In this document: piece after piece, positions 2,691 through 51,296 of the stretch
Layout of the letters: each line of letters begins with the position of its first letter
Position numbering within the stretch: the first letter of the stretch is position 1
Assembly: GCA_022457155.1 (NCBI GenBank)
Contig: JAJGOT010000038.1
Location: 1,204,501-1,268,500, forward strand
DNA length: 64,000 nt
Reading direction: 5' to 3'
Source: Cladopsammia gracilis
Lineage: Eukaryota; Cnidaria; Anthozoa; Scleractinia; Dendrophylliidae
The notes under the pieces: generated by a model
Seen by the model: only the letters and a program-made list of their open reading frames with translations
Told to the model about the DNA's origin: nothing
The model's database searches: none
Translations under genes and position numbers: made by a program

Positions 2691-5371
2691 CACATCACTT
2701 TAATATTGTACCCTCGAGTGCGCAGAAACTGCATCTTTTGCTCAGTGAGTTTGTAGATGTCGTCCATGCAGCGGTTCAATTGTCACTTGTGCGGTTCGCA
2801 ACGATTCGGGTAACATTTTCGAACTCGTAAACAGTGTTTGTTGTCTCATCGTATCCGTCTACGAAATAACGAGACTCCGGGATCTTATATTCCCTGGCGT
2901 CGCCCACGTGTTGGATACCTGTCTGATGCAACGGATGAGCGCCATCATTATGGGCCAATTCCATTAAATTGAAAACATCGCGATCCTCTTCCAACATGGT
3001 CATGTAAGCTTGTGATTGAAGGCAATGTTCCTGCCAATAAAGCCATTCTAGCGCTACTTTTGATTGATTCATCTTGTTTTTCCAGCCCCACAAAGGTTCT
3101 GTGGTGATACTGTCCGGCACCATGTGATTCATACGCAGATCTCGACTACAGGCGGAGGCAATGGTCATATAGTCAAAAGGATTAAAACTCGTTTGCACTT
3201 CAAACAAACGTTTAAAGGTTAGGCAGCCTTCATTTAACAGTTTTACATCGCTTTTGCAATAAGCCAACAGTTCATCCTGAAAATTAAATTCCTCATTTTT
3301 TTCACGCTGTTTCTTGTGCCATTCTTCTAATTCTTTACGCTCCTTAGGCATCATGTTTTCTGGCATGTAATAATCTAAAGCCGGTACCGAACCCACATAG
3401 TCCTGATGTTCGGGTGTGTTAAATAAATGAAGGAAATATCCCTTTCTTAGTTCAGTGATTCCAAATGTTTTTGGAAACGCTGATAACGGCATTTGAAAAA
3501 AACTGAGCGAATCAATGAAGCGTATGTTATTGTTTATCTGGTCAAATCGCCGGTTCTGCTTGCGATATTCTTTCAGAATGTGGTAACCATCACAGCCTTG
3601 AAAATTGTGGGCTGACATCAGTGGGCGGCCCTCTTCAGCAAGATCAAGCCAAGCAATAAATTGTTCCACACAATCCTCTCCTTTGAAATCCACCGATCCG
3701 TCGTCTTCCTCCGTTTCCGCTACAATTAAATTGGCTTCGTGTTTTTCGCGTTCCTGCATAGCTTCCACATCGAAAAAAACGTGACGCAGTGGCTTATCTT
3801 CGATGTCCATGTCCTCGTCGGCTTCCTCTTCCTCACAGTCGACAGCCGCTGCTTCTGCTTGTCTAGCTCGTTTTTGGGCCTTTTTCCTTTCCTTTTGTTT
3901 TCTTTAAGTTTGCGTGCCTCTTCGTTTGTAGGTGCTTTCTGGATAAAACAACGGTGCGTTTGAATGTTAACATACTGTTCACAAGAGGCGCATTGCATGT
4001 ACCCACAATGATGATGTTTTATGTCAAACAAACCCTTTTCAGTCTTGAAACAACTGCCACACCGTTTGCGATAGCTGCACACAGCCAAGACCTCCTCGTC
4101 CACTTCCTCTTCTTTCATACTAAACATGCAATGATTCTCTAAGCAGCTCTCTTCAAAGAAAAACTGATTACAACTACCACAATGAAGTTTAGCCGTTTCG
4201 CCTGGTGCCCTGTTTTGAAAATCTTCAGTCTGTTTGGAAGCAAGCGTTGCAGCTAGCAACTCGATGTTGATGTTCGTCTTTATTGTTGTAGGGTTTGAAA
4301 CATTCCTTACACCAATAACTAGCACCCGAAAAATCCGGCATCGATTTAATTACATCAAAATGTCCATCCATATGCAACAAAATCAGTTGAGGACAGTCTT
4401 CCCTCTCTTTGGTAATGTTACAGGGGCTAAAACCACGATCAGCATCTACAATGATAATTTGGTAACCCTCTAAAGTCTGCGTGTTGGCAAATTTCACCAA
4501 TTCGGGATAACCGCACGGTCCAATTGGTACTCCTGCTTCCGAATGCAATTTACCCGCTTCTTTTCCTTGTGTGTGTAAACCCCACTTGAAACGCTCTAAT
4601 TTAGGGTGTTTGTCGGTATGGGCTTTGGCTGTGACTAGTGCTCTCGCGCAGCAGATTTCATCCTTGTTTTTGACGGTAATCACTGTTCGTTTAATTTTAC
4701 GAAACACGTCAGGATGTCGGCGTCCAGGTTTAAGCTTGTGTTTTCTACCAGATCCGCGCGGGTTGCTTGCACATGGACAAACATAACATTGAAAGAATCA
4801 TTGAGTTCAAAGGATTCGTTGCTGTTTAACGAATTGGCCAGTCGCTGAAAATCTCCCTCCACACGCCTTGAACCATTACACCAATTGCGCCCTCTCAACT
4901 GCCAGCTACCAAAGTTGTAATTGAGCCGTTCGAACTCAATTCAAAAAACAAACGGTCGTCATCTCCCACTTGCTCTTGTTCTAAGAGATTGTTCATGGCC
5001 TTTCTCAAGCCATTTTGTAGTTCGCGCACGAGGTGGTGGTGTTGAATAACGTTGCCTGTTTGACGCAAACGAGTGGTAAACCGTCACTGTTTAACCCCCA
5101 TTCGCACTGTAGTTTTAGTTTCCACGGGATTCAAATCAAACTGAAATAAACCCTCTTGGTCGGCATTCGTAATACCCCCACCGCTTTGAAGGAGTTGATT
5201 TTGAAACGCTTCCACCCTTTCAAACATGGCTAGAGCATTTAAACAAGCCCAATCGTCTCTTAAATCATCCATTGCTACCAAATTTCCACCTTCTAAGCTT
5301 TCAGTAGTGTTTAAACAAGCGCGGTCGAGCTCACAGTCATCTATCGGCACCAGATTATCAGCTGCTTCCAT
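2688..5371 (-). pseudogene. Polinton/Maverick protein-primed DNA polymerase B, N-terminal part
   Basis: Minus-strand frames at 5371-5084, 4898-4680, 4707-4225, 4325-3726 and 3810-2776, plus a short continuation to about 2688, together resemble the N-terminal and exonuclease regions of the protein-primed family B polymerase of Polintons and adintoviruses. The exonuclease region shows FFDVEAMQ (Exo I-type D-x-E) and SAHNFQGCDGYHILKEY (Exo II-type). A cysteine-rich zone at about 4180-3950 (CGSCNQFF, CGSCFKTEKG) looks zinc-binding. At least four frameshifts or stops separate the frames, including a stop near 5084, so it is dead. The end at about 2688 comes just after a MWEC motif, where a DIRS recombinase fragment is joined; palm and thumb domains are missing here. 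The likely start is the ATG at 5371. Confidence 0.85.
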
Positions 5372-23861: not shown

Positions 23862-24083
23862 GTTGCTGGCATCTTTAAACGTAAAATCCTCACCTTGTTA
23901 ATGTGCACTGTGTGGCACACAAGTTGGCGCAGTTTGCAGTTCACAAGCTGCTGAAAACATCCCAGGACTCAAGCAGCATCAGCAAATCCATACTGATCTG
24001 TTTTACTACTTCAAGGCTAGTAGTAAAAGAGCAGCAAAGATAAAGCAAGTTCAAGAACTTCTACAGAATCCTATCCTCACTTA

Positions 24084-24284
24084 CTATTGATCCCAGACGT
24101 CCTTTCAAATGGCTTGAATTTTGCGTCGCTTCACGGACCGTTGATTTCACTCTGCGGGTTTCAAAAATACTAATCACGTGACTCAAAATTTGAGCTGGCG
24201 CGCCCGCTAAAATGAAACCCGCGGCAACGAAAAGTTAGACCGGCGGCAAACGAAAACTGATTGCGTCAGTTGTTTACATTTTAG
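24084..24284 (+). repeat. Left terminal inverted repeat, 201 bp
   Basis: Begins CTATTGATCCCAGACGTCC after a TA. It contains an E-box palindrome (TCACGTGA near 24173-24180) and a GC-rich part (GGCGCGCCCGC). It ends TTTACATTTTAG, 27 bp before the ATG of the PB1 gene. Confidence 0.97.
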
Positions 24285-24311
24285 ACCTGCCTGGCCGTTT
24301 GCAGGAAAAAT

Positions 24312-25769
24312 ATGGCGACGGTGCAGATAAAGATTTTTTATGGCGAGGAGTTTGACAGATGCAAAAATTTTCGTATGTCTAAGACGTGGCTTGAACTTAC
24401 CAATTATGAAGACTTCGCCAGTACAGTTTTAGAAGCCATCAGAGTTTTCTTCGAAGGAAAGTCGCCAAGTGATGTCAGAATGCAATATCGAGATGACGAG
24501 AACACGTTTGTTCATTTGACCTCTGACGACGACCTCATGGACGCGTTTAGATGCTTACAGCCAGTCCAGAACTGTGATGAATTGTACAGGTTGTGTCTTA
24601 GGGTACATGGATCAGCCACTCCCGTTCCTTCGCATGTTGCAGCAGAGAGAACGAATGAATCGAAGCGAAGATTCACGCTGCCGCCCAAACAGTTGAGTTA
24701 CCCGGAAAGTATGGCAACCAGTTGTACAAGTGTCACAAGTAAACCTGAAACAAAAAAATTCCAATCTCCCTTGGATGTGTTCTTACAAGAAAAGAGGAAA
24801 GCAGTGGATTACCAAAAGAAACGAGTTTCACAACTACAAGCTGCTGTAATCGAGTCTTCATTCAGTAGCGCTGGTTCCACGCCGTACACGAGGCGTACAC
24901 GAAAGCCAGTTTGTACCAATTGCCACATGGAAGGCCACAACAAGCTTCATTGTGAATTTGGCCAGTGCCTTTCTGTGCAATACTGTAACCTGCTCGAGAA
25001 ACATCCCGACGAGAAAAAGAAATTGGCGAACATGAAAAAGCAACTGAAAGTCGAGGAAGGCAAACTGGCACGACTAGAAGAAGAACTGCAGGCGAAAGCA
25101 GCAACAGCCACATCAGTCCAAAATCGCTTCTCCTACAAAGTCCGAGAAATGTTAATCAACAGCTGCCCGGAGACGTATTTGGTAACAACCAAAGATGGAC
25201 GGAGTGTTGAAAACTGGCATGCTATCAATCGGGATTCAAAGAAATTGGAAAAACTTTGTAAAGGAAAAATCCCCGAGTCAACTTCGGAAATGATCCAACT
25301 GCTTTCAGAGGGGGATATTGATGACAGCCCCGTTAGGAGCAAGTCTACATCTGTGAGAAACCCGTATAAACGCTTGTGGGAAGAAAGGGGAATTATCTGG
25401 CCTTCCGCGACCACGCGATTCTCGCCCTACAGTAATCCACAGCAAGGTGCAATGAGTGTTCCACAGAGACCGGAGGATTGTTCAACTGATGTGCTCAGGG
25501 AACAGGAGGAATTCCTTCTTAATATGGCAATGAAAGAGAGCCTTAAGAGCTGCACAGGGTCAGCAACTGTGTCTCGAGCCCGTGGGTCTGGAGAACTTGC
25601 TAACTCGTTCAATAACTGCGATCTGGGTGAAGAGTTGCGCGTGGTTCCTGATGAGTACAGAACCAGCCCCATTCGTAAGGAGGGGCAAGCATCTGGTTCT
25701 GGACTATCGTTGCTTGTGGATGCGGTTGGCTTGATCAACAGCTCAACTGACACTGGAACACTTAAATAA
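24312..25769 (+). CDS. Transposon-borne PB1 / coiled-coil / zinc-knuckle / UIM-like protein, 485 aa
   Basis: Intact single-exon ORF starting 27 bp inside the left TIR. Residues 1-100 look like a PB1 domain: VQIKIFYGEEF at the start, and an acidic OPCA-type stretch YRDDENTFVHL...SDDDLMDAF (59-79) near the end. Residues 155-185 and 230-265 are charged and probably coiled-coil. A CCHC knuckle (C201, C204, H209, C214) lies between them. REQEEFLLNMAMKESLKS (396-413) fits the ubiquitin-interacting motif pattern, with acidic residues before an Ala and a Ser spaced by three. PB1 domains mediate paired or oligomeric protein contacts; CCHC knuckles bind nucleic acid. No transposase function is visible. 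Role is unknown: it could assist transposition, bind DNA or engage ubiquitinated host proteins. Domain calls are by eye. Confidence 0.85.
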   Translation: MATVQIKIFYGEEFDRCKNFRMSKTWLELTNYEDFASTVLEAIRVFFEGKSPSDVRMQYRDDENTFVHLTSDDDLMDAFRCLQPVQNCDELYRLCLRVHGSATPVPSHVAAERTNESKRRFTLPPKQLSYPESMATSCTSVTSKPETKKFQSPLDVFLQEKRKAVDYQKKRVSQLQAAVIESSFSSAGSTPYTRRTRKPVCTNCHMEGHNKLHCEFGQCLSVQYCNLLEKHPDEKKKLANMKKQLKVEEGKLARLEEELQAKAATATSVQNRFSYKVREMLINSCPETYLVTTKDGRSVENWHAINRDSKKLEKLCKGKIPESTSEMIQLLSEGDIDDSPVRSKSTSVRNPYKRLWEERGIIWPSATTRFSPYSNPQQGAMSVPQRPEDCSTDVLREQEEFLLNMAMKESLKSCTGSATVSRARGSGELANSFNNCDLGEELRVVPDEYRTSPIRKEGQASGSGLSLLVDAVGLINSSTDTGTLK

Positions 25770-26610
25770 GCTTAGCGGTTCTCTGGCGGTAATATACGTT
25801 GTGTTAGATGCATGGCCAATTAAATTTTTTCTTTCCAGTATAGATCAGTCTATTTATGACAAATTGAGTTACTATTAGTGTTTCTGTCAAAGAGCATGGT
25901 GCACGATGCTGTATAAAATGCTTTGTGTGAGACATACATCGAGCCAATCAAGGTTGAAATAACCGTTGATTCAGCTGTTTCCCCGGCCGTAATCATGTTA
26001 GTTGGATTATCATAATATAGTTTCAAAATGTAAACAGAACAAATCAATGCGTATGCAATCGTATAATTGTAACTGATGAAAGCTTTATTGTTGTATTTCG
26101 ATATATTCAAAGTTAAGTTAGGGCATGGTCGCACTACAGTCAAAAACAAAAATCCGCCCGTGCAAAAATCGAGGAAAACAAAAGAAACCGCTCCGGTGGG
26201 ACACGCTTTTTGTGAAAAGTTTTTGTTTTTATGTCATTTTGCACGGGCTAATTTTTGTTTTTGACTGTAGTGCGACCAGGCCCTAAATCATTGTTGAGAA
26301 AAGGCAAAATGAAAGATAATGTTTAAGTTTTAAAATGCTTGTGCTTAATCTGATATGTTTCCTCATCAGTATTAAAAACCTGTTAAAACGTTTTCACTGG
26401 CATTAAGTTTGACAATTTGAAGGCGATGAACTGATGAACGTATCAGCCTTCCTGGTGCTAAAAAATGTGCCAGAGCTGCCAGAATATGTTAAAATTCAAC
26501 CCAAACAATGAATTGCTCGCCTTTAAGCCCCCCCCCCCCCCACCCCCCAATTGAAAATACGATCCGCCGTCCCTGTTTTCACACTCGTGCACTGAATAGG
26601 TATCGTTTTA
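25770..26610. other. Gap between convergent genes, with nested MITE and poly-C run
   Basis: The space between the two convergent stop codons contains the 163-bp MITE at 26121-26283 and a C-rich tract at about 26529-26550. No further gene is apparent. Both 3' UTRs and polyadenylation sites must lie here. Confidence 0.7.
26121..26283. mobile_element. Palindromic MITE, 163 bp, nested in the transposon
   Basis: Inverted ends GGGCATGGTCGCACTACAG (26121) and the complement of GGGCCTGGTCGCACTACAG (26283), extending about 45 bp with few mismatches. TA occurs on both sides (26119-26120, 26284-26285). Confidence 0.85.
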
Positions 26611-27687
26611 TCAAATAGCAATGTATCCCGTTTTTCGGTAGAATCCTCTCATGTCATGCTCTGTTATCTGCTCGACACAATTGTACACCCCAACATGTAT
26701 GTTCCGATAAAAAGACTGACGAATGTTCTCCCATTTTGCCACCGTTTTCATTTTGTTGAAAGCCAACTCAATGGGGTTAAATTCTGGCGAGTATGTCGGT
26801 AAATAAACAACTTCAATTCCTTGCTCATCCATCCACCGCCCCAAAGCATACCCTCCTTCATTATGATGAGTCGCGTGGTTGTCGAGTACGATGTGATCGC
26901 CATATCGAAGAACTGGCTCCCCATTTGGAAGGAAGTTCTCGGATGCCTCACCGAAAAAATTGAGAAAATCTACTGTATCTGTTGTTCCGTCAACGGTATT
27001 TGCGTACAGTATCCCTTCCAAACCTGCGAGAACCTGAAGAGTCACATTTGGTGTGTTTATATTTCGGGCGACTTCAATACACGAAGCGCCAACAAGGGAG
27101 TGACCGTAATTTGCCTTGGCAACATCGGGTAACTTAAATCCTGCCTCATCGAAACATTTGATCTTGTATGGATCTACTGCAGACATGTACGTTAGAAAGT
27201 CTTGACAATAGTTAATATTTTCAGGGGAAAATTTGTCTATAGGGCGAGTCGACGTTCTTTTCCAGGACATTGGACCGCACAACAATTTCGATCTTATGGC
27301 TCGGCTGATCGCACTTCGCGAAGTTCCACCGTTTACATTACAGTGTGTTTCGACCACATCTTGGATTTTCTTTAGGGGCATCGACGGTGTACTTTGTTTC
27401 AAAACTTCCATGACTTCCAACGCAGTTTCGGTCAAATGCGGCGGATTTTGACCTCCTTTTTTATCTCGAGGACCAATTTCTCCACCCTCACAGAAATTTA
27501 TCCAAATGTTCTTTACAGTTTTCCCGCTAACGTTGAATTTTCGTCCAACATCTGAATAGCTACCTAGAAAGACACTCGAAAAATAGTCTCCTCCATTATG
27601 AACAATGGTATCGATAATCCCTCGCCTCAGGTCATCAGACAATGCCTTTCCAGGACAAAATGTACGCCCCATGTTGGACACTGACAT
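26611..27687 (-). CDS. IS630/Tc1-type DDE transposase, DD37E, 358 aa
   Basis: Intact ORF from the ATG at 27687 (an alternative in-frame ATG lies five codons later), starting 60 bp inside the right TIR. The N-terminus has helix-turn-helix character: GKALSDDLRRGIIDTIV (13-29) and SYSDVGRKFNVSGKTVKNIW (43-62). The RNase H-fold core has D180 in KCFDEAGF, D269 in HIVLDNHATHH and E307 in YSPEFNPIE, with 37 residues between the last two (DD37E). The length is usual for the superfamily (about 340-360 aa). It should cut at the TIRs and insert at TA, matching the observed target duplication. All catalytic residues are present, so it may be active. Confidence 0.93.
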   Translation of the reverse strand: MSVSNMGRTFCPGKALSDDLRRGIIDTIVHNGGDYFSSVFLGSYSDVGRKFNVSGKTVKNIWINFCEGGEIGPRDKKGGQNPPHLTETALEVMEVLKQSTPSMPLKKIQDVVETHCNVNGGTSRSAISRAIRSKLLCGPMSWKRTSTRPIDKFSPENINYCQDFLTYMSAVDPYKIKCFDEAGFKLPDVAKANYGHSLVGASCIEVARNINTPNVTLQVLAGLEGILYANTVDGTTDTVDFLNFFGEASENFLPNGEPVLRYGDHIVLDNHATHHNEGGYALGRWMDEQGIEVVYLPTYSPEFNPIELAFNKMKTVAKWENIRQSFYRNIHVGVYNCVEQITEHDMRGFYRKTGYIAI

Positions 27688-27746
27688 TCTTGCTTGACCA
27701 CGAAAGCAGATTACAAGATCCTCGGAATTACTAGTAGTCTCTGCGA

Positions 27747-27947
27747 CTAAAATGTAAACAACTGACGCAATCAGTTTTCGTTTGCCGCCGGTCTAACTTT
27801 TCGTTGCCGCGGGTTTCATTTTAGCGGGCGCGCGAGCTCAAATTTTGAGTCACGTGATTAGTATTTTTGAAACCCGCAGAGTGAAATCAACGGTCCGTGA
27901 AGCGACGCAAAATTCAAGCCATTTGAAAGGACGTCTGGGATCAATAG
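27747..27947 (-). repeat. Right terminal inverted repeat, 201 bp
   Basis: Inverted copy of the left TIR with one mismatch, ending GGGATCAATAG before TA. Its inner edge is about 60 bp from the transposase ATG, so it probably contains the transposase promoter. Confidence 0.97.
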
Positions 27948-28937
27948 TACAAGGAGTTGCACTCCGTACGATGGCTTTCATACTTCAATGCATTGACTGC
28001 AGTGTACAGAACCCTAGACAGCCTTATAACCTATCTGGAAGCGGGCACAGTCAACAAGGATCCAAAAGCTGTTGGTCTAAAATGTAAAGCGAGTCCCATT
28101 GCTCAGGTTACATGACAGGTCAGGTTATCACTCTCAAACTAATAACATGGCATGATGATCTTATAGATTAACACAGACAAGTTCATTTCCACCCCTTACC
28201 TCATGATGGAGGCCATGTCACCAGTTGCTATTCTGTCACAATTTTTTCAGAAAGGAAATGTAGATGTGGCACTAATTAAGGTATTTTGATTAATATATAT
28301 TATGCTGTTGCTGTGTTCTTTTACCAGCTTTTGTCTTATTTTTAATTACTTTAAACACCGGACCTCACTACTAGTACTGTAAGTACAGGCTACTAGAAGC
28401 TTCTTGTTCATATCATTTTTTCCCAACCTTGATTTACAGGAAAACTTGAATTGTGTGTCACTGACCTTCAGCAAGTGAAGACTACAAACACCACACTTAC
28501 AACAGCTTAGAAAAGACCTGCAGACAGAGCGAAAGGGTTCCTTTAAAGGCCAACATGAGGTTTCACTAACAAACTTCAGTCTTCAGAAGCTGGTTCATGA
28601 TTTTGTTGACAAGTTAGTTGAGAATATTAAATGAAGGTAACGATGCCACAAAATAAATTTTATTTATTATATAAAATATTGACTTGCCTTCTTGAAAGGG
28701 TCACATGACCTTCATGTTGCTCACGGTACATAAATAACCATACATCTGAATGGATCATCATGTTACCCTACCTTGTAATTATTAATGCTTCACCGTTTTT
28801 AAGCTCAATTTCACAAAGTACTGTTGTAATTGTCTGTGGAATTTTTTAGTGAGATTCCAGTACTTAGTGCTGTACAGATGTGTACTTTTCTTTATGTTAA
28901 ATAAAAAGCGGGCATAAGCAATGACGTTGACGTAAAC

Positions 28938-47147: not shown

Positions 47148-47945
47148 TGTCCGACACTGGAAACGGCGTAGAATCAAATCTTGAGGTTCCTTTTGACGAC
47201 TCTTCACAACGGACTCCTATTCCGCCTTCTTCGTCTCCGCTACAACAGTCTCCTGACTTAGCATCGACGTTTTCTCTCTTTAAGTATTATTTTGACAAGA
47301 AATTGACCGCGTTGAAGCACGACATCCAGGAAGACTCCTTAAGCAACAGTGATTCTATTGCTAAGAAGTTGAAAGGACTCCAAAATATCCTTCAAGTTTG
47401 AGGGGAACAACAGGCAGTTCTACTTCAATTCCGGCCTTGCAGAGAAGGTTCAATCGGCTTCCACCGCTCTCGCTAAAAGGAAATTTGAAGTCGCCCGCTC
47501 TTATCTAGAAGAGCTAGACGCTGACATAAAGAAACGCAACAAACTTGTCAGATTGGCCGATAAATCCGCTGCCGGTTGGGACTTGGTCAACGAATATTTA
47601 TCTGACGAATTGGCTAGCGGATCGGAGGACGAAAAGCGAATTCGACGCGCAGAGCAGAGGGCCCTTCGCAAACACAAAGATCGGCAGCAGCAGAAAACGA
47701 AGTCCGCAGCCAGGCAGAGTCAACCATCTGCAACCACCACTTCTTTTGCTGGCCAGCGTCAGTTCAATTTTGCTTCTGCTTCTCGTTCCTTTGCACCCGC
47801 TAGTAAAGCAAAGCCTGGCAATTTCTGCTTCGCTTGTGGTCGGCAAGGTCATTGGAGATCCCAGTGTCCTGGACATTCCCAACCCAGACCTTCAAGTTCC
47901 AGCCAGTTGAATTCCGGTTTCTCCTCAAACCTTGGAGGTAAATAA
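47147..47945 (+). CDS. Gag-like ORF1 with zinc knuckle (one frameshift)
   Basis: ATG at 47147 at the edge of A1. The first frame (to 47401) is acidic, then Ser/Pro-rich (PFDDSSQRTPIPPSSSPLQQ). A one-base shift near 47385-47398 is needed to enter the frame that continues FKFEGNNRQFYFNSGLAEKV to the stop at 47945. The C-terminal part has basic RRAEQRALRKHKDRQQQ and a zinc knuckle CFACGRQGHWRSQC. It should package the element RNA. The shift may be a mutation; no slippery heptamer of the classic X-XXY-YYZ form is obvious. Related fragments lie at 17.4 and 19.4 kb. Confidence 0.85.
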
Positions 47946-47988
47946 AAACCTTCCCAAGAACTTGGAGTAAAAGTTAAGTATTTATTTT

Positions 47989-50016
47989 GTGATTATGGAT
48001 TTTTCCAGCTTAGAGTTTTTCAGAGAAAGAGACTCTAGTTCTTTAGTCGATTTCGATTACGATCGAAATCTATTCGAATATGAACAGAACTCTGTTTTGC
48101 CTGTACTGAAAGGCAGGCTTAAGGCCGCGCTCCATTATTGGTATTCTATTGGCGCCAATAGCTTTGTTACTGATACTATCAAGTTCGGTTATCGCATCCC
48201 TTTTCTCAGTACCCCTAGCAGGGCGCTTTTTCGTAACAATAGGTCAGGTTTGGACAATGCGTTGTTTGTCGAGTCGGCTATATCTGAATTAGTTTGCAAT
48301 CACTCGGTGGTTGAGGTACCCTCTGTCCCACACGTTGTTAACCCGCTTTCTGTGTCGATTCAATTGTCAGGCAAGAAAAGGCTTATTCTCGATTTGAGGC
48401 ATGTCAACCAGTCTATTTGGAAGCAGAAGTTTAAGAGCGTAGATTGGAGGGTCTTGTTATCATATGTAAACAAGGGTGGTTTCCTTTTCAGTTTTGATCT
48501 CAAGTCTGGCTATCGTCATTTTGATATTTTTCCAGATCATCAAACTTTTTTGGGGTTTTCCTGGAATTTTTCTGGAACTGTCAGATATTTTTGTTTCACA
48601 GTTCTCCCTTTCGGCCTTAGTTCCGCCCCGTACATTTTTACCAAATGTCTCAGGCCGCTTGTTAAGTTTTGGAGACTTAGTGGCATCAAAATAGTCGTGT
48701 TTCTCGACGACGGGTGTGGTGAGGGTGATTCATTGCGAATTGCTAAGGATCATTCATTGCTCGTTCGGACATCGCTGGGTTATGCAGGTTTTTGTCACTA
48801 ATTCCGCTAGTCTACTTGGGAACCTACGCAGTCACTTGTTTGGTTGGGTTTGAACTGGAATCTTGTTTCTGGTTCGTTTTCTATCTCTGATAGGCGTATT
48901 TCCAATTTTATTGTTTTTTTAGAGAAATTCCTTCAATCAGCTCCGTACGTCACTGCTCGGGAGTGCGCCTCGATCGCAGGCCATGTTATGTTAATGTCAC
49001 CAGTCTTGGGTAATTTGACTCGTCTTAAGACCCGTTTTTTGTACAAGGTCATAGACTCCAGGTCTTCGTGGGATTCTCAGTTCAATATCGGGCTTCATAA
49101 CGATTGTCTTTCGGAAATATTTTTCTGGGAAAACAATATCGCGAGCCTTAATTCTAGACTTATAGTGCCTTATCAGGCGCCTTGTTTGCTTAGTTTTTCA
49201 GATGCTAGTAACGTAGCCTGTGGGGCTTACCTTGTCGGTACTAGCCAAGTATGCCACCGTATGTGGAGTCCATGTGAGGCTATGAAGAGCTCTACATGGA
49301 GAGAACTTAAAGCCGTGTTTTTTGCTTTAACATCGTTTAAGGATTCAGTTCAGGGCAAGTCCGTTAAATGGCACTCTGACAATCAAGGGGCGGTCCGCAT
49401 AGTTGACATAGGGAGTCCTAAAGCAGAATTGCATTCTATTGCGCTTGAGATTTTTGATTTCTGTAGGATTTTTAATGTTCGTCTTGTTCCTCAATGGGTT
49501 CCCAGAGAGCTTAATGTTTGTGCTGATGAAATTAGCAACATCATCGATCACGATGACTGGTATACTACCCAGGGGTTTTTTGCCCATTTAGATTCTATCT
49601 GGGGTCCCCATACTGTTGATAGGTTTGCTAATGCGTCCAATGCCCATCTCCCTAGATTCAATTCTAGGTTTTGTGTATCAGGCTCAGAAGCTGTTGACGC
49701 TTTTTCAGTCTCTTGGACGGCAGAGAATAATTGGCTCGTTCCGCCAGTACATTGTATCACAAGGGTGATCCAACATCTTGTTTCATGTGGCGCCTTTGGG
49801 ACTTTAGTGGTCCCTTATTGGCCATCTAACGTTTTTTGGCCTTTTCTATTTGCGAGCTCGCTTGATTTTCAACCATACGTTGTTGGGTCCATTTACTTCC
49901 CAGATCCCTCGGGGATATTTGCTCTTGGGTGTTATAAGGATTCGCTCATAGGCTCTGATAAGTTCAATAGTGCGGTTCTAGCTGTCAGAATTGACGCTAG
50001 GGGTCACAGTTCTTAG
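47989..50016 (+). CDS. RT, RNase H and methyltransferase-like polyprotein (two in-frame stops)
   Basis: ATG at 47989. RT motifs in order: HVVNPLSVSIQ, LILDLRHVNQSI, FSFDLKSGYRHFDI, LPFGLSSAPYIFTKC and the active site VVFLDDG. Stops TAA (48799) and TAG (48811) lie in a window of about 25 nt that looks out of frame, consistent with two compensating single-base indels; afterwards the same frame continues STWEPTQSLVWLGLNW. RNase H has LSFSDASN, SSTWRELKAV and WHSDNQGA. Then GPHTVDRFANASNAHLPRF, VDAFSVSW, NNWLVPPVHCITRV and GTLVVPYWPSNVFWP, the phage-like N6-adenine methyltransferase-type domain of DIRS/PAT elements. It makes element cDNA. Confidence 0.92.
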
Positions 50017-50286
50017 GCATGGCGTTTTTTCTTTTATGCCGAGTGGTTTTTTGACTGCAGTGACGTTCGCACTGGTCAGTGGTTATGTTCGTGAGTTCAA
50101 GAAGTTTCGTCTGCTTGTTCTTTGACTGTGTTTTGAATGAAACTAGTTTGCCGAGTGGCTTGATTCTCGCCTAGTGGCGTTCTGCAGATTTGTACAGGAT
50201 TGTACAGGGTTGTTTTTTGCGTTGTAAATTAGTTTCACGTTTGTTATGATATTTATTTTTGCAATGCTAACGTTGTTCCCATAGAT

Positions 50287-51296
50287 TTTGTCAGAGGGGC
50301 TTTACAGCCTGGTTTTCAACATGTTGAAGACAGCCGCCTCAAGGTATTAGCTCAGGAGCTCCCTGAAGTTCTTCTCAAGAGCAAAAGCGCAAATACAGCT
50401 AAGAAGTATGAAAGAGGTTTTAATGCATGGAGAAAATGGGCTTCACAGTTCAAGGAGATTGTAATTTTTCCCGCTTCTAGCGTTTATGTTTCTTTATTTT
50501 TTCTTAGTTTGATACAAGAATCGGTTTCTTGTAACATTATTGACGAAGTCCATTACGGGCTTAGGTGGTTTCATGATTTAGCAGGTCATCCCGACCCATG
50601 TAATTCACCTGTTGTTATTCCATTATTGGAATCTGCCAAAAGGCTTCTTAGTGTTCCGATTAGAAAGAAAGAACCAGTTACTCCTGAAGTTGTTCAGCGC
50701 TTGTTTGCGCATTATGGCTCCGCTTCCGCTAGTTTATCTGATTTACGTTTGCTCAGTTTGTGTGTTTTGGTTCATGCGGGATTTTTCCGTTTCAACGAGT
50801 TAGTTCAATTGCGCAGGTGTGATTTTCTATTTGAAGATTCTTTCATGAGAATTTTTGTTCAGCGTAGCAAGACGACATTTATAGGGATGGAGCTTGGGTT
50901 GTCATTGCTAAAACCCTAAAGCCTACTTGTCCTGTTATGTAAACCCTTCGTTATTTTTCAGTTGCTTCTTTTTCAGAAGACAGTGAAGTTTTCATTTTCC
51001 ATCCACTTGTTTTCTGCAGCAGCAATGGATCTTATCGTTTTCGTGGGTCTGCCCCATTGTCCTACTCTAGGGCGCGCGAGATAGTGCTTTCCGCTTTTGA
51101 GGCCGTTGGCCTCTCCAAACAAGATTATGGGCTTCACAGCCTTAGAGCTGGAGGCACCTCTGCCGCGGCAAATGCCCAGATTTCTGATCGTTTGTTTAAG
51201 AGACACGGACATTGGAAATCAGACAAAGCTAAGGATGGCTACATAAAGGATAATACTCTTGCTTTGTTGTCGGTTTCATTGTCATTGGGTATTTAA
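50287..51296 (+). CDS. Tyrosine recombinase ORF (two breaks)
   Basis: An open frame from about 50287 (no clear ATG; preceded by a CCCATAG acceptor-like site, so it may be spliced or frameshifted from pol) to 50919. It has a SAM-like N-terminal region (KSKSANTAKKYERGFNAWRK) and the first catalytic Arg in HAGFFRFNELVQL. A shift near 50880-50890 and a stop at about 50938 break it. From 51057 it continues to LHSLRAGGTSAAA (HxxR), the HGHWKSDKAKDGYI region (His/Trp and the catalytic Tyr) and the stop at 51296. The residues R, HxxR, H and Y are present across the pieces. It should integrate circular cDNA. Confidence 0.88.

Follow-up and report, generated by a model that had tools for sequence, protein, structure and literature searches.

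Within the window, a stretch of 64,000 nucleotides from the genome of the coral Cladopsammia gracilis, positions 24084–27947 are occupied by a two-gene element of 3,864 bp, bounded by terminal inverted repeats (TIRs), flanked by a TA target-site duplication and containing two intact convergent ORFs (Table 1). Left and right TIR differ at a single position (TIR position 114). An earlier note on this DNA had described 201-bp TIRs with one mismatch, a TA duplication, two intact convergent ORFs, a DD37E transposase and a PB1-domain partner, all of which were recovered; it had placed the start codons 27 and 60 bp inside the TIRs, and the first figure (partner) was reproduced, whereas the second (transposase) was measured as 59 bp. 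The longest stop-free frames of the element span 494 and 393 codons, as opposed to a maximum of 270 codons in 500 order-1 Markov sequences of equal length, which rules out chance ORFs. When the flanks were joined without the element, an open frame spanned the insertion site. The TIRs, the target-site duplication and many relatives likewise rule out a domesticated single-copy locus. The left TIR holds the inverted 10-mers GCGGGTTTCA and TGAAACCCGC and an E-box-like CACGTG; single-strand folding of the TIR was nothing special (z −1.4). A repeat similar to the MITE-like one nested between both genes was also seen in the related stretch L057.

Table 1. Features of the two-gene element (positions in the window).
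Feature	Position	Strand	Evidence or content
Left TA target-site duplication	24082..24083	.	Flanking sequence and joined-flank (empty) site
Left TIR, 201 bp	24084..24284	+	Inverted-repeat comparison
Partner gene, 485 aa	24312..25769	+	PB1 domain, coiled-coil-like helices, Cys/His module, UIM-like motif
PB1 domain, partner residues 3-93	24318..24590	+	Pfam match; K7 and D61 kept in 11/11 aligned partners
Cys/His module C201-x2-C204-x4-H209-x4-C214 ... C219 ... C225 ... H231	24912..25004	+	Family alignment
UIM-like motif EEFLLNMAMKESL	25506..25544	+	Below Pfam cut-off
Palindromic TA-flanked MITE-like repeat, nested between both genes	26118..26286	.	
Transposase gene, 358 aa, DD37E, IS630-like	26611..27687	-	
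Right TIR, 201 bp	27747..27947	-	Inverted-repeat comparison
Right TA target-site duplication	27948..27949	.	Flanking sequence

The window transposase matched the DDE_3 domain (71.3 bits, Pfam cut-off 28.6), and its catalytic D269 and E307 are separated by 37 residues, within the 34–41 residues of DDE/D domains of the IS630-Tc1-mariner (ITm) type. Among the 10 of 16 transposases caught by the motif script, this spacing was 37 in the window protein (W), L040, L041 and L050, and 38 in L060 and L062–L066. The N-terminal paired/HTH part typical of ITm transposases is present as a PAX match (23.8 bits, Pfam cut-off 22); PAX was also above the cut-off in L053 and in all nine DD38E members scanned (48–85 bits), and was not recognised by the Pfam scan in L040, L043, L045, L047 and L050. 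Full-length alignment of the window transposase with three bacterial IS630 proteins gave 22–23% identity, and the protein scored barely above the cut-off of the bacterial NCBIfam model transpos_IS630 (100.6 vs 100 bits). No relatives were found in phage DNA or in most searches of viral contigs; one search of viral contigs gave 28 distant matches (25–41% identity over parts). AlphaFold models of both proteins, computed without alignment, were poor (mean pLDDT 33 and 43). With its DDE_3 domain, paired/HTH part, TA target and TIRs the element resembles ITm elements, but it differs from them in having two genes where one ORF is usual, according to the accessible parts of PMC8533490 and PMC10379824. 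That single-ORF habit is not strict, as exceptions occur in ciliates.

PB1 is a domain of head-to-tail assembly. In the window partner it was recognised as Pfam PF00564 with 34.3 bits (cut-off 23.6). When 12 partner N-termini were scanned, five passed the cut-off (W, L040, L047, L060 and L063), four stayed below it (L043, L050, L057 and L062), and three had no Pfam PB1 match (L045, L052 and L056). A profile of 10 partners matched the PB1 domain of Cdc24 at 3.8e-5. K7, D61 and most Cys/His positions are invariant in the 11 partners aligned; the PB1 lysine is replaced by Q in L050, which lies outside the alignment, and by M in the frameshifted L046. Self-associating (type-1/2) PB1 domains are defined by a conserved β1 lysine and an acidic OPCA core (PMC7051960, available part). 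The lysine is present in the window protein (K7), and the full acidic core (D-x-D/E-x-D/E) in 4 of 11 partners (L043, L060, L062 and L063); the core of the window protein is partial, and its self-polymerisation is therefore not assured. A conserved Cys/His module is common to the partners, and most of the members read also have a PB1-like N-terminus. A search of plasmids for relatives of the partner returned none. In the partners of L065 and L071, a SAM-like N-terminus was seen by eye, which is a hint only: L071 reached 13.3 bits with SAM_1 (Pfam cut-off 23) and had no PDB match, and L065 had no SAM-type Pfam match.

A search of the element's own genome, in which only the best candidates were scored, gave at least 117 transposase and at least 89 partner matches. 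A partner lay within 5 kb of 46 of the 108 merged transposase loci listed, with ∼0.10 expected by chance, and all 46 pairs were convergent. Reading of 35 stretches, which include mutual near-copies and are thus not independent (L042–L044, L052–L055 and L060/L061/L067/L068), revealed a partner in 30, convergent in 29; the pair in L071 is doubtful because both genes are on one strand. The paired transposases were 27–75% identical to that of the window, and fragments up to 87%. Inverted repeats flanked the genes in 23 of the 35 stretches; each of the 22 inverted-repeat elements measured was bordered by TA on either side, and at least 32 of the outermost 40 bases matched in 20 of them. The read stretches without a partner were L048, L049, L070, L072 and L074, the last three of which were read for 3.0–3.4 kb beyond the transposase. 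For 62 of the 108 listed transposase loci, most of them unread, the single-sequence search gave no partner match within 5 kb, and several of these fall into groups in which a partner emerged on closer reading. Conversely, no scored transposase lay within 5 kb of 37 of the 83 merged partner loci listed. For ten of these, a transposase match of PAX type was found within 6 kb, and the transposase was frameshifted in the two that were read (L067 and L068); a further three or more are deletion derivatives bounded by TIRs. The PAX-type loci, 85 in number, were selected chiefly for an open frame of at least 340 aa, supplemented with loci having a known nearby partner, and 134 of the 150 matches used for typing scored less than 100 bits; because of this choice, 35 of 85 should not be read as an unbiased rate.

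The transposase and partner trees of the 11 elements whose partner was readable as a single ORF had 7 of 8 splits in common (Mantel r 0.71, p 0.0001), several of the branches being weakly supported. L041, L042, L044, L046, L048–L051, L053–L055, L058, L059, L061 and L064–L066 were left out as broken, split, near-duplicate or without usable partner, and L067–L074 were fetched after this analysis. Of seven pairs compared, only L052/L056 had a usable dS in both genes (partner dS was saturated in the other six); there, dN/dS was 0.155/0.728 (∼0.21) for the partner and 0.050/0.572 (∼0.09) for the transposase. L052 is identical to L053 over 3,537 bp, and L060 to L061 over 3,076 bp, at different sites in both cases, and the identity stops at, or a few bases from, the TA-flanked ends. 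This points to mobility of both genes as a unit.

The earlier note had proposed a distinct lineage with a second conserved protein and, as a check, had asked whether dN/dS of both genes lies below 1. The invariably convergent pairs, the recurrence of the partner in the stretches read and the shared tree splits bear out this proposal, as does dN/dS below 1 for both genes in the one usable pair. Copies of the TIR family that carry the transposase and never the PB1 gene, which that note would have taken as a refutation, were not seen; the one close copy without a partner, L048 (∼90% in the transposase), is broken, as its transposase contains stops and it retains a single TIR. Nor was the PB1 gene recognised as a host gene outside TIRs, the other refuting observation named there, in a non-exhaustive search that left the remaining partner loci unread. 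The spread of the lineage far beyond the family of the window element, and its Pax-like branch, had escaped the earlier note.

The DD37E families L18, L31, MS (Mosquito) and TRT, compared by description only, have the same D-to-E spacing as the window transposase. L18 has been studied in cnidarians, MS elements have TIRs of 19–203 bp and in some cases exceed 4 kb (both PMC10379824), and L31 was grouped as the sister of Tec from ciliates (PMC7325037); the accessible portions of these two sources mention no PB1 partner for any of the four families. The ciliate elements Tec, TBE, Sardine, Thon and Anchois likewise combine an IS630/Tc1-type transposase with extra ORFs inside TIRs, but these encode a tyrosine recombinase, a zinc-finger protein or unknown products, and no PB1 protein is named among them in the available text of PMC7325037 and PMC3464196. 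These multi-ORF precedents had been missed when one transposase was given as the norm for IS630/Tc1/mariner elements, which holds as the usual case. Harbinger, too, is a two-gene DNA transposon with congruent transposase and partner trees, both genes being necessary for transposition (PMC9179366, in part). It differs in its transposase superfamily and its Myb/SANT-like partner, whereas in the element described here the target is TA and the partner combines a Cys/His module with a PB1-like part; no Myb or Myb/SANT-like domain was among the matches listed in Pfam scans of the window partner and other partners. In MUSTANG-B, a domesticated plant MULE, a PB1 domain is also tied to a transposase-derived protein, but as an added 5′ exon of the domesticated gene, rather than as an independent gene within a mobile element (PMC3435246, available part).

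The reading favored here, with a probability of roughly 0.57, is that the element represents an ITm lineage with two convergent genes, in which the partner would be a self-assembling cofactor of transposition. The IS630-like DDE transposase, of type DD37E in the window element and DD38E in a sister branch, would bind the long TIRs via its paired-type domain, cut, and then insert at TA, and the TIRs may double as promoters, one for each gene. The partner would self-assemble and hold several transposase/TIR complexes together, and perhaps carry the transposase into the nucleus. By analogy with the Myb-like protein of Harbinger, it may be needed for efficient transposition.

Other roles of the partner are conceivable. 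Like Gag or ORF1p, which join a self-assembling part to a CCHC-type knuckle, it could serve as a chaperone or packaging protein for the mRNA or DNA of the element rather than as transposome cofactor; the C-x2-C-x4-H-x4-C pattern, which appeared in 3 of 20,000 shuffles of window partner residues 95–485, indeed adjoins helical, coiled-coil-like stretches and the PB1 domain. This is unlikely, however, as RNA packaging is unneeded by a cut-and-paste element, and as the second half of the module (C219, C225 and H231) misfits a plain retroviral knuckle. Less probable again is a regulator that limits transposition, e.g., by sequestering the transposase, with truncated PB1-only copies adding to the limitation. 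Three TIR-bounded derivatives of 1.16–1.18 kb do keep partner residues ∼2–206 without a transposase match, and one of them (C1061) has an open frame of 241 aa, but the other two carry stops and may for that reason be plain internal deletions, and need accounts for the lasting co-divergence of both genes more readily than self-limitation does.

The partner might also be a p62-like scaffold, joining a PB1 polymer to a ubiquitin-binding motif, that protects the transposase against degradation or counteracts a host response. UIM-like motifs are found near the C-termini of the window partner (RAP80_UIM, 19.6 bits, cut-off 27.3) and of L050 (UIM_2, 15.5 bits, cut-off 21), and W, L040, L045 and L047 all contain a corresponding pattern. 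No ubiquitin-interacting motif exceeded a curated cut-off, however, 6 of 8 segments had no Pfam match at all, and the pattern, which was written after the motif had been seen, is absent from 7 of 11 partners, including all three aligned partners of the DD38E branch; among the roles weighed here, this one appears the least plausible. Transposons do capture host genes. The PB1 domain of plant MUSTANG-B proteins is thought to be an example (PMC3435246 and PMC8616336, in part), and the element could accordingly be an accident, a transposase with a captured host PB1 gene or with an unrelated neighbor. This is barely credible, because the same genes recur in the same arrangement beside widely diverged transposases; a one-off capture or a chance neighborhood is ruled out by the 46 convergent pairs out of 46, the 7 of 8 common splits and the identical two-gene copies.

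The paired domain of the DD38E transposases resembles that of Pax. L063 and L074 matched four solved Pax chains over ∼118–128 residues (E 8e-17 to 8e-22). Nine DD38E members and Pax formed a single clade (support 100/99); monophyly of the DD38E members by themselves was not rejected (AU p 0.23, 0.18 and 0.13), in trees built without the paired domains of Tc1/mariner. In these trees, L041 was omitted as a near copy of L040, L072 stood for its 97% relative L066, and L057 was used with an incomplete N-terminus. Pax genes, six of which were read, were found in the same assembly and point to an animal genome, Pax being known as a gene family of animals; they differ from the DD38E transposases in having no DDE part. 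A Pax-like transposase is not new in itself, because PAIRED-like transposases of acorn worm and oyster have already been used as outgroup (PMC4901127, accessible part). Joining this resemblance to the cofactor reading gives a tentative and rather doubtful picture, in which the Pax paired domain may have been taken from the DD38E branch of a two-gene lineage whose members were recently mobile in an animal genome with a self-assembling partner. The N-terminal module of that partner would be exchangeable, with PB1 in most partners and perhaps a SAM-like module in those of L065 and L071, and with selection keeping assembly and the Cys/His module.

Tc1/mariner-type transposons are textbook one-enzyme elements. 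The retention, in a deep lineage, of a second protein that bears a self-assembly domain would mean that some of them need help, and this help is assayable, as intact, recently multiplied copies exist. To our knowledge, polymer-assisted transposome assembly has not been described for eukaryotic DNA transposons and, if the joint picture is true, would be a mechanism new to them. The DD38E branch offers concrete, close living relatives for testing the old proposal that Pax originated from a transposase.

The anatomy on which the earlier note was based, with 201-bp terminal inverted repeats (TIRs) bearing one mismatch, a TA duplication and two intact convergent ORFs, was seen again in every part (see the table below). 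The start codons lie inside the TIRs as claimed, by 27 bp on the plus strand and, for the second gene, by 59 bp rather than 60. The gap between the ORFs measures 841 bp, and the stop-free frames of the element reach 494 and 393 codons, compared with a maximum of 270 in 500 Markov sequences of equal length. Its CpG observed/expected ratio is 1.01, whereas 525 overlapping outside windows of equal length average 0.63 (12 of them were as high), which fits a young insertion. A palindromic, TA-flanked, MITE-like repeat sits between both genes (26118-26286), and a similar one is found in the relative L057 (5931-6064).

Features of the two-gene element, in window coordinates
Feature	Coordinates	Length	Strand	Remarks
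Two-gene transposon	24084-27947	3,864 bp		bounded by TIRs, TA on either side
TIRs		201 bp each		single mismatch at TIR position 114
Partner ORF	24312-25769	485 aa	+	intact
Transposase ORF	26611-27687	358 aa	-	intact

When the flanks are rejoined with a single TA, an open frame of 115 codons spans the junction. The reading frame interrupted by the element (about 23900-24083 and 27950-28100) looks by eye like what we take to be a hAT-type transposase; Pfam gave no hAT-type match for the joined frame. Elsewhere in the window, ORF 2776-3903 (-) scores 54.7 bits for the DNA polymerase B type 2 domain (cut-off 25.8) and may be a Polinton remnant, and an ORF run at 47373-50919, one member of which has weak reverse-transcriptase RNase H matches and another a CCHC-like knuckle, may be a DIRS-like element.

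In the window's own assembly (878 Mb), at least 117 transposase and at least 89 partner matches were found, merging into 108 and 83 loci, respectively. A partner was present within 5 kb at 46 of the 108 transposase loci, convergent in all 46 (chance expectation about 0.10). This single-sequence search found no mate within 5 kb for 62 transposase and 37 partner loci; at 10 of these 37, a transposase match of PAX type lies no more than 6 kb away. Of 35 stretches read around such matches (L040-L074; 33 picked for a transposase match and 2 for a partner match, with several near-copies among them), 30 contained the partner (18/20, 7/7 and 5/8 in three sets), in L059 merely as a 63-residue fragment. 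The genes converge in 29 of the 30; L071 has both on one strand, and its pair is doubtful. Among the partnerless stretches, L048 has stops in the transposase and a single TIR, L049 holds several partial transposases, and for L070, L072 and L074 the sequence covered just 3.0-3.4 kb beyond the transposase. L072 shares 97% transposase identity with L066, whose partner match starts more than 3 kb from its transposase. The convergent loci and the 30 stretches bear out the proposal that a second, conserved protein belongs to this lineage. In L067 and L068, from a multiplied family, the transposase is frameshifted and the partner still open. On contig C169 (174129-211058), a PAX-type paired domain accompanied by a partner match occurs three times, ~17.2 kb apart, reflecting either tandem duplication or an assembly artefact.

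Of the 35 stretches, 23 show inverted repeats flanking the genes (L040-L047, L050-L057, L060-L065 and L073); none were found in L048, L049, L058, L059, L066-L072 and L074, some stretches beginning or stopping inside the element. A TA was sought at both ends of 22 elements, and the outermost 40 bases match at 32 to 40 positions in 20 of them; end placement is poor for L044 (15 of 40 matching) and L047 (31). Automated placement sometimes settled on an inner TA; it did so for the window element too, for which the rejoined flanks identify 24082-24083 as correct. The aligned repeats of these relatives measure 50-189 bp, compared with 201 bp in the window, and terminal sequences vary by subfamily (CTAT..., CTAC..., CAG...). 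L041 is a 2.5-kb deletion derivative retaining the transposase and roughly the first 227 partner residues. The window TIR has at least 56 genome matches at ≥86% (best 40 of 124 candidates scored). Sixteen close head-to-head pairs among those listed are MITEs (15 spanning 466-494 bp, one truncated), and pairs on contigs C1263, C1061 and C552 span 1.16-1.18 kb around a partner fragment (about residues 2-206). Within this list, the pair in the window is the only one with two intact genes between its repeats.

Both genes have evolved and moved together. Transposase and partner trees of 11 elements whose partner is readable as one ORF share 7 of 8 splits, several branches being weakly supported (Mantel r 0.71, p 0.0001). 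Of seven pairs for which dN/dS was attempted, L052/L056 alone had usable dS for both genes, and there both ratios are below 1 (partner 0.155/0.728, transposase 0.050/0.572); for the window and L040, the transposase gave 0.163/1.745 and the partner a dN of 0.336 with saturated dS. L052 and L053 are identical across 3,537 bp and L060 and L061 across 3,076 bp, at separate genomic places, the identity stopping at, or a few bases from, the TA-flanked ends. Thus, transposase and partner have recently been mobile as a unit.

The window transposase matches Pfam DDE_3 (71.3 bits) and, slightly above the cut-off of 22, PAX (23.8 bits). The spacing of its catalytic residues D180, D269 and E307 makes it DD37E. 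It scores 100.6 with the NCBI bacterial IS630 model (cut-off 100), and plasmid-borne relatives, several annotated as IS630 family transposases, are 21-27% identical (best 15 of 689 records); three that were fetched align over the full length, C-terminus included.

The window partner combines a PB1 domain (residues 3-93, 34.3 bits), a C-x2-C-x4-H-x4-C pattern (residues 201-214; 3 in 20,000 shuffles), helical coiled-coil-like stretches and a UIM-like motif under the Pfam cut-off (residues 399-411). The PB1 beta-1 lysine, D61, C201, C204, H209, C219, C225 and H231 are invariant in 11 aligned partners, and C214 is kept in 10; outside the alignment, the lysine is replaced by Q in L050 and by M in the frameshifted L046. 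Of 12 partner N-termini scanned, Pfam PB1 exceeded its cut-off in the window, L040, L047, L060 and L063, fell under it in L043, L050, L057 and L062, and gave no match in L045, L052 and L056. In the PDB, a 10-partner profile matched two PB1 domains, that of Cdc24 at 3.8e-5 and that of NBR1 at 0.009. The acidic PB1 core is complete in 4 of the 11 aligned partners and incomplete in the window protein; PB1 domains having both faces, and likewise SAM domains, can associate head to tail, according to PMC7051960. In L065 the TIRs enclose both genes. Its partner has no Pfam PB1 match and an N-terminus that looks SAM-like by eye, with no SAM support from Pfam. L069 matched neither PB1 nor SAM in Pfam. 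The partner's Cys/His part in L073 (1545-2066) weakly resembles the IS91 zinc-binding domain (Zn_Tnp_IS91, 21.1 bits, cut-off 26.3).

Judging by homology and anatomy, the transposase would bind via its paired domain, cut via its DDE residues and insert at TA. Each TIR may drive one gene, given the position of the start codons; a simple scan found no TATA box. Co-divergence, constraint, joint mobility and the analogy with Harbinger suggest that the partner aids transposition. Harbinger likewise keeps a second protein with its transposase; there, according to PMC9179366, it interacts with the transposase, binds the TIRs and lets the two proteins enter the nucleus together, and transposition needs both genes. 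That helper role is shown for Harbinger and predicted here. Weighed against an RNA/DNA chaperone, a ubiquitin scaffold, a limiter of transposition and accidental gene capture, a transposition cofactor appears the somewhat favored reading, at a probability of roughly 57%; the lysine replacements in L050 and L046 and the uneven Pfam PB1 scores count slightly against it.

In the sister branch, DD38E, the paired domain is Pax-like. Against the PDB, L063 matched Pax8 (8.6e-21) and no transposase chain (E up to 1), L074 matched Pax8 (8.1e-22, 81 bits) and Sleeping Beauty (23 bits), and a host Pax domain found no transposase chain (E up to 10). Of 150 PAX matches scored in the genome, 16 reached at least 153 bits and 134 at most 90, many of the latter coinciding with transposase matches; six of the 16 were read, all Pax-like, and the other ten were assigned to Pax by score. 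Strong matches are clustered, five on C1074 (four inside about 53 kb) and seven on C987, which suggests expanded or tandem Pax genes. In IS630-rooted paired-domain trees, which left out Tc1, mariner and other families, Pax and nine DD38E members form a single clade (100/99). The best trees place Pax among DD38E members, and DD38E without Pax was not rejected (AU p 0.23 in one tree; 0.18 in another, or 0.13 when L065 is omitted from it).

PubMed Central full-text searches for PB1 in transposons, judged by titles and abstract openings and with subscription journals, preprints and Repbase outside their scope, listed no PB1 gene in a Tc1/mariner or IS630 element, and a 2021 review (PMC8616336) describes PB1 as "usually not associated with TEs". 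Acorn worm and oyster transposases of the PAIRED-like type have been published as an outgroup (PMC4901127). What is new here is therefore not such transposases themselves; it is the partner and its coupling to the transposase.
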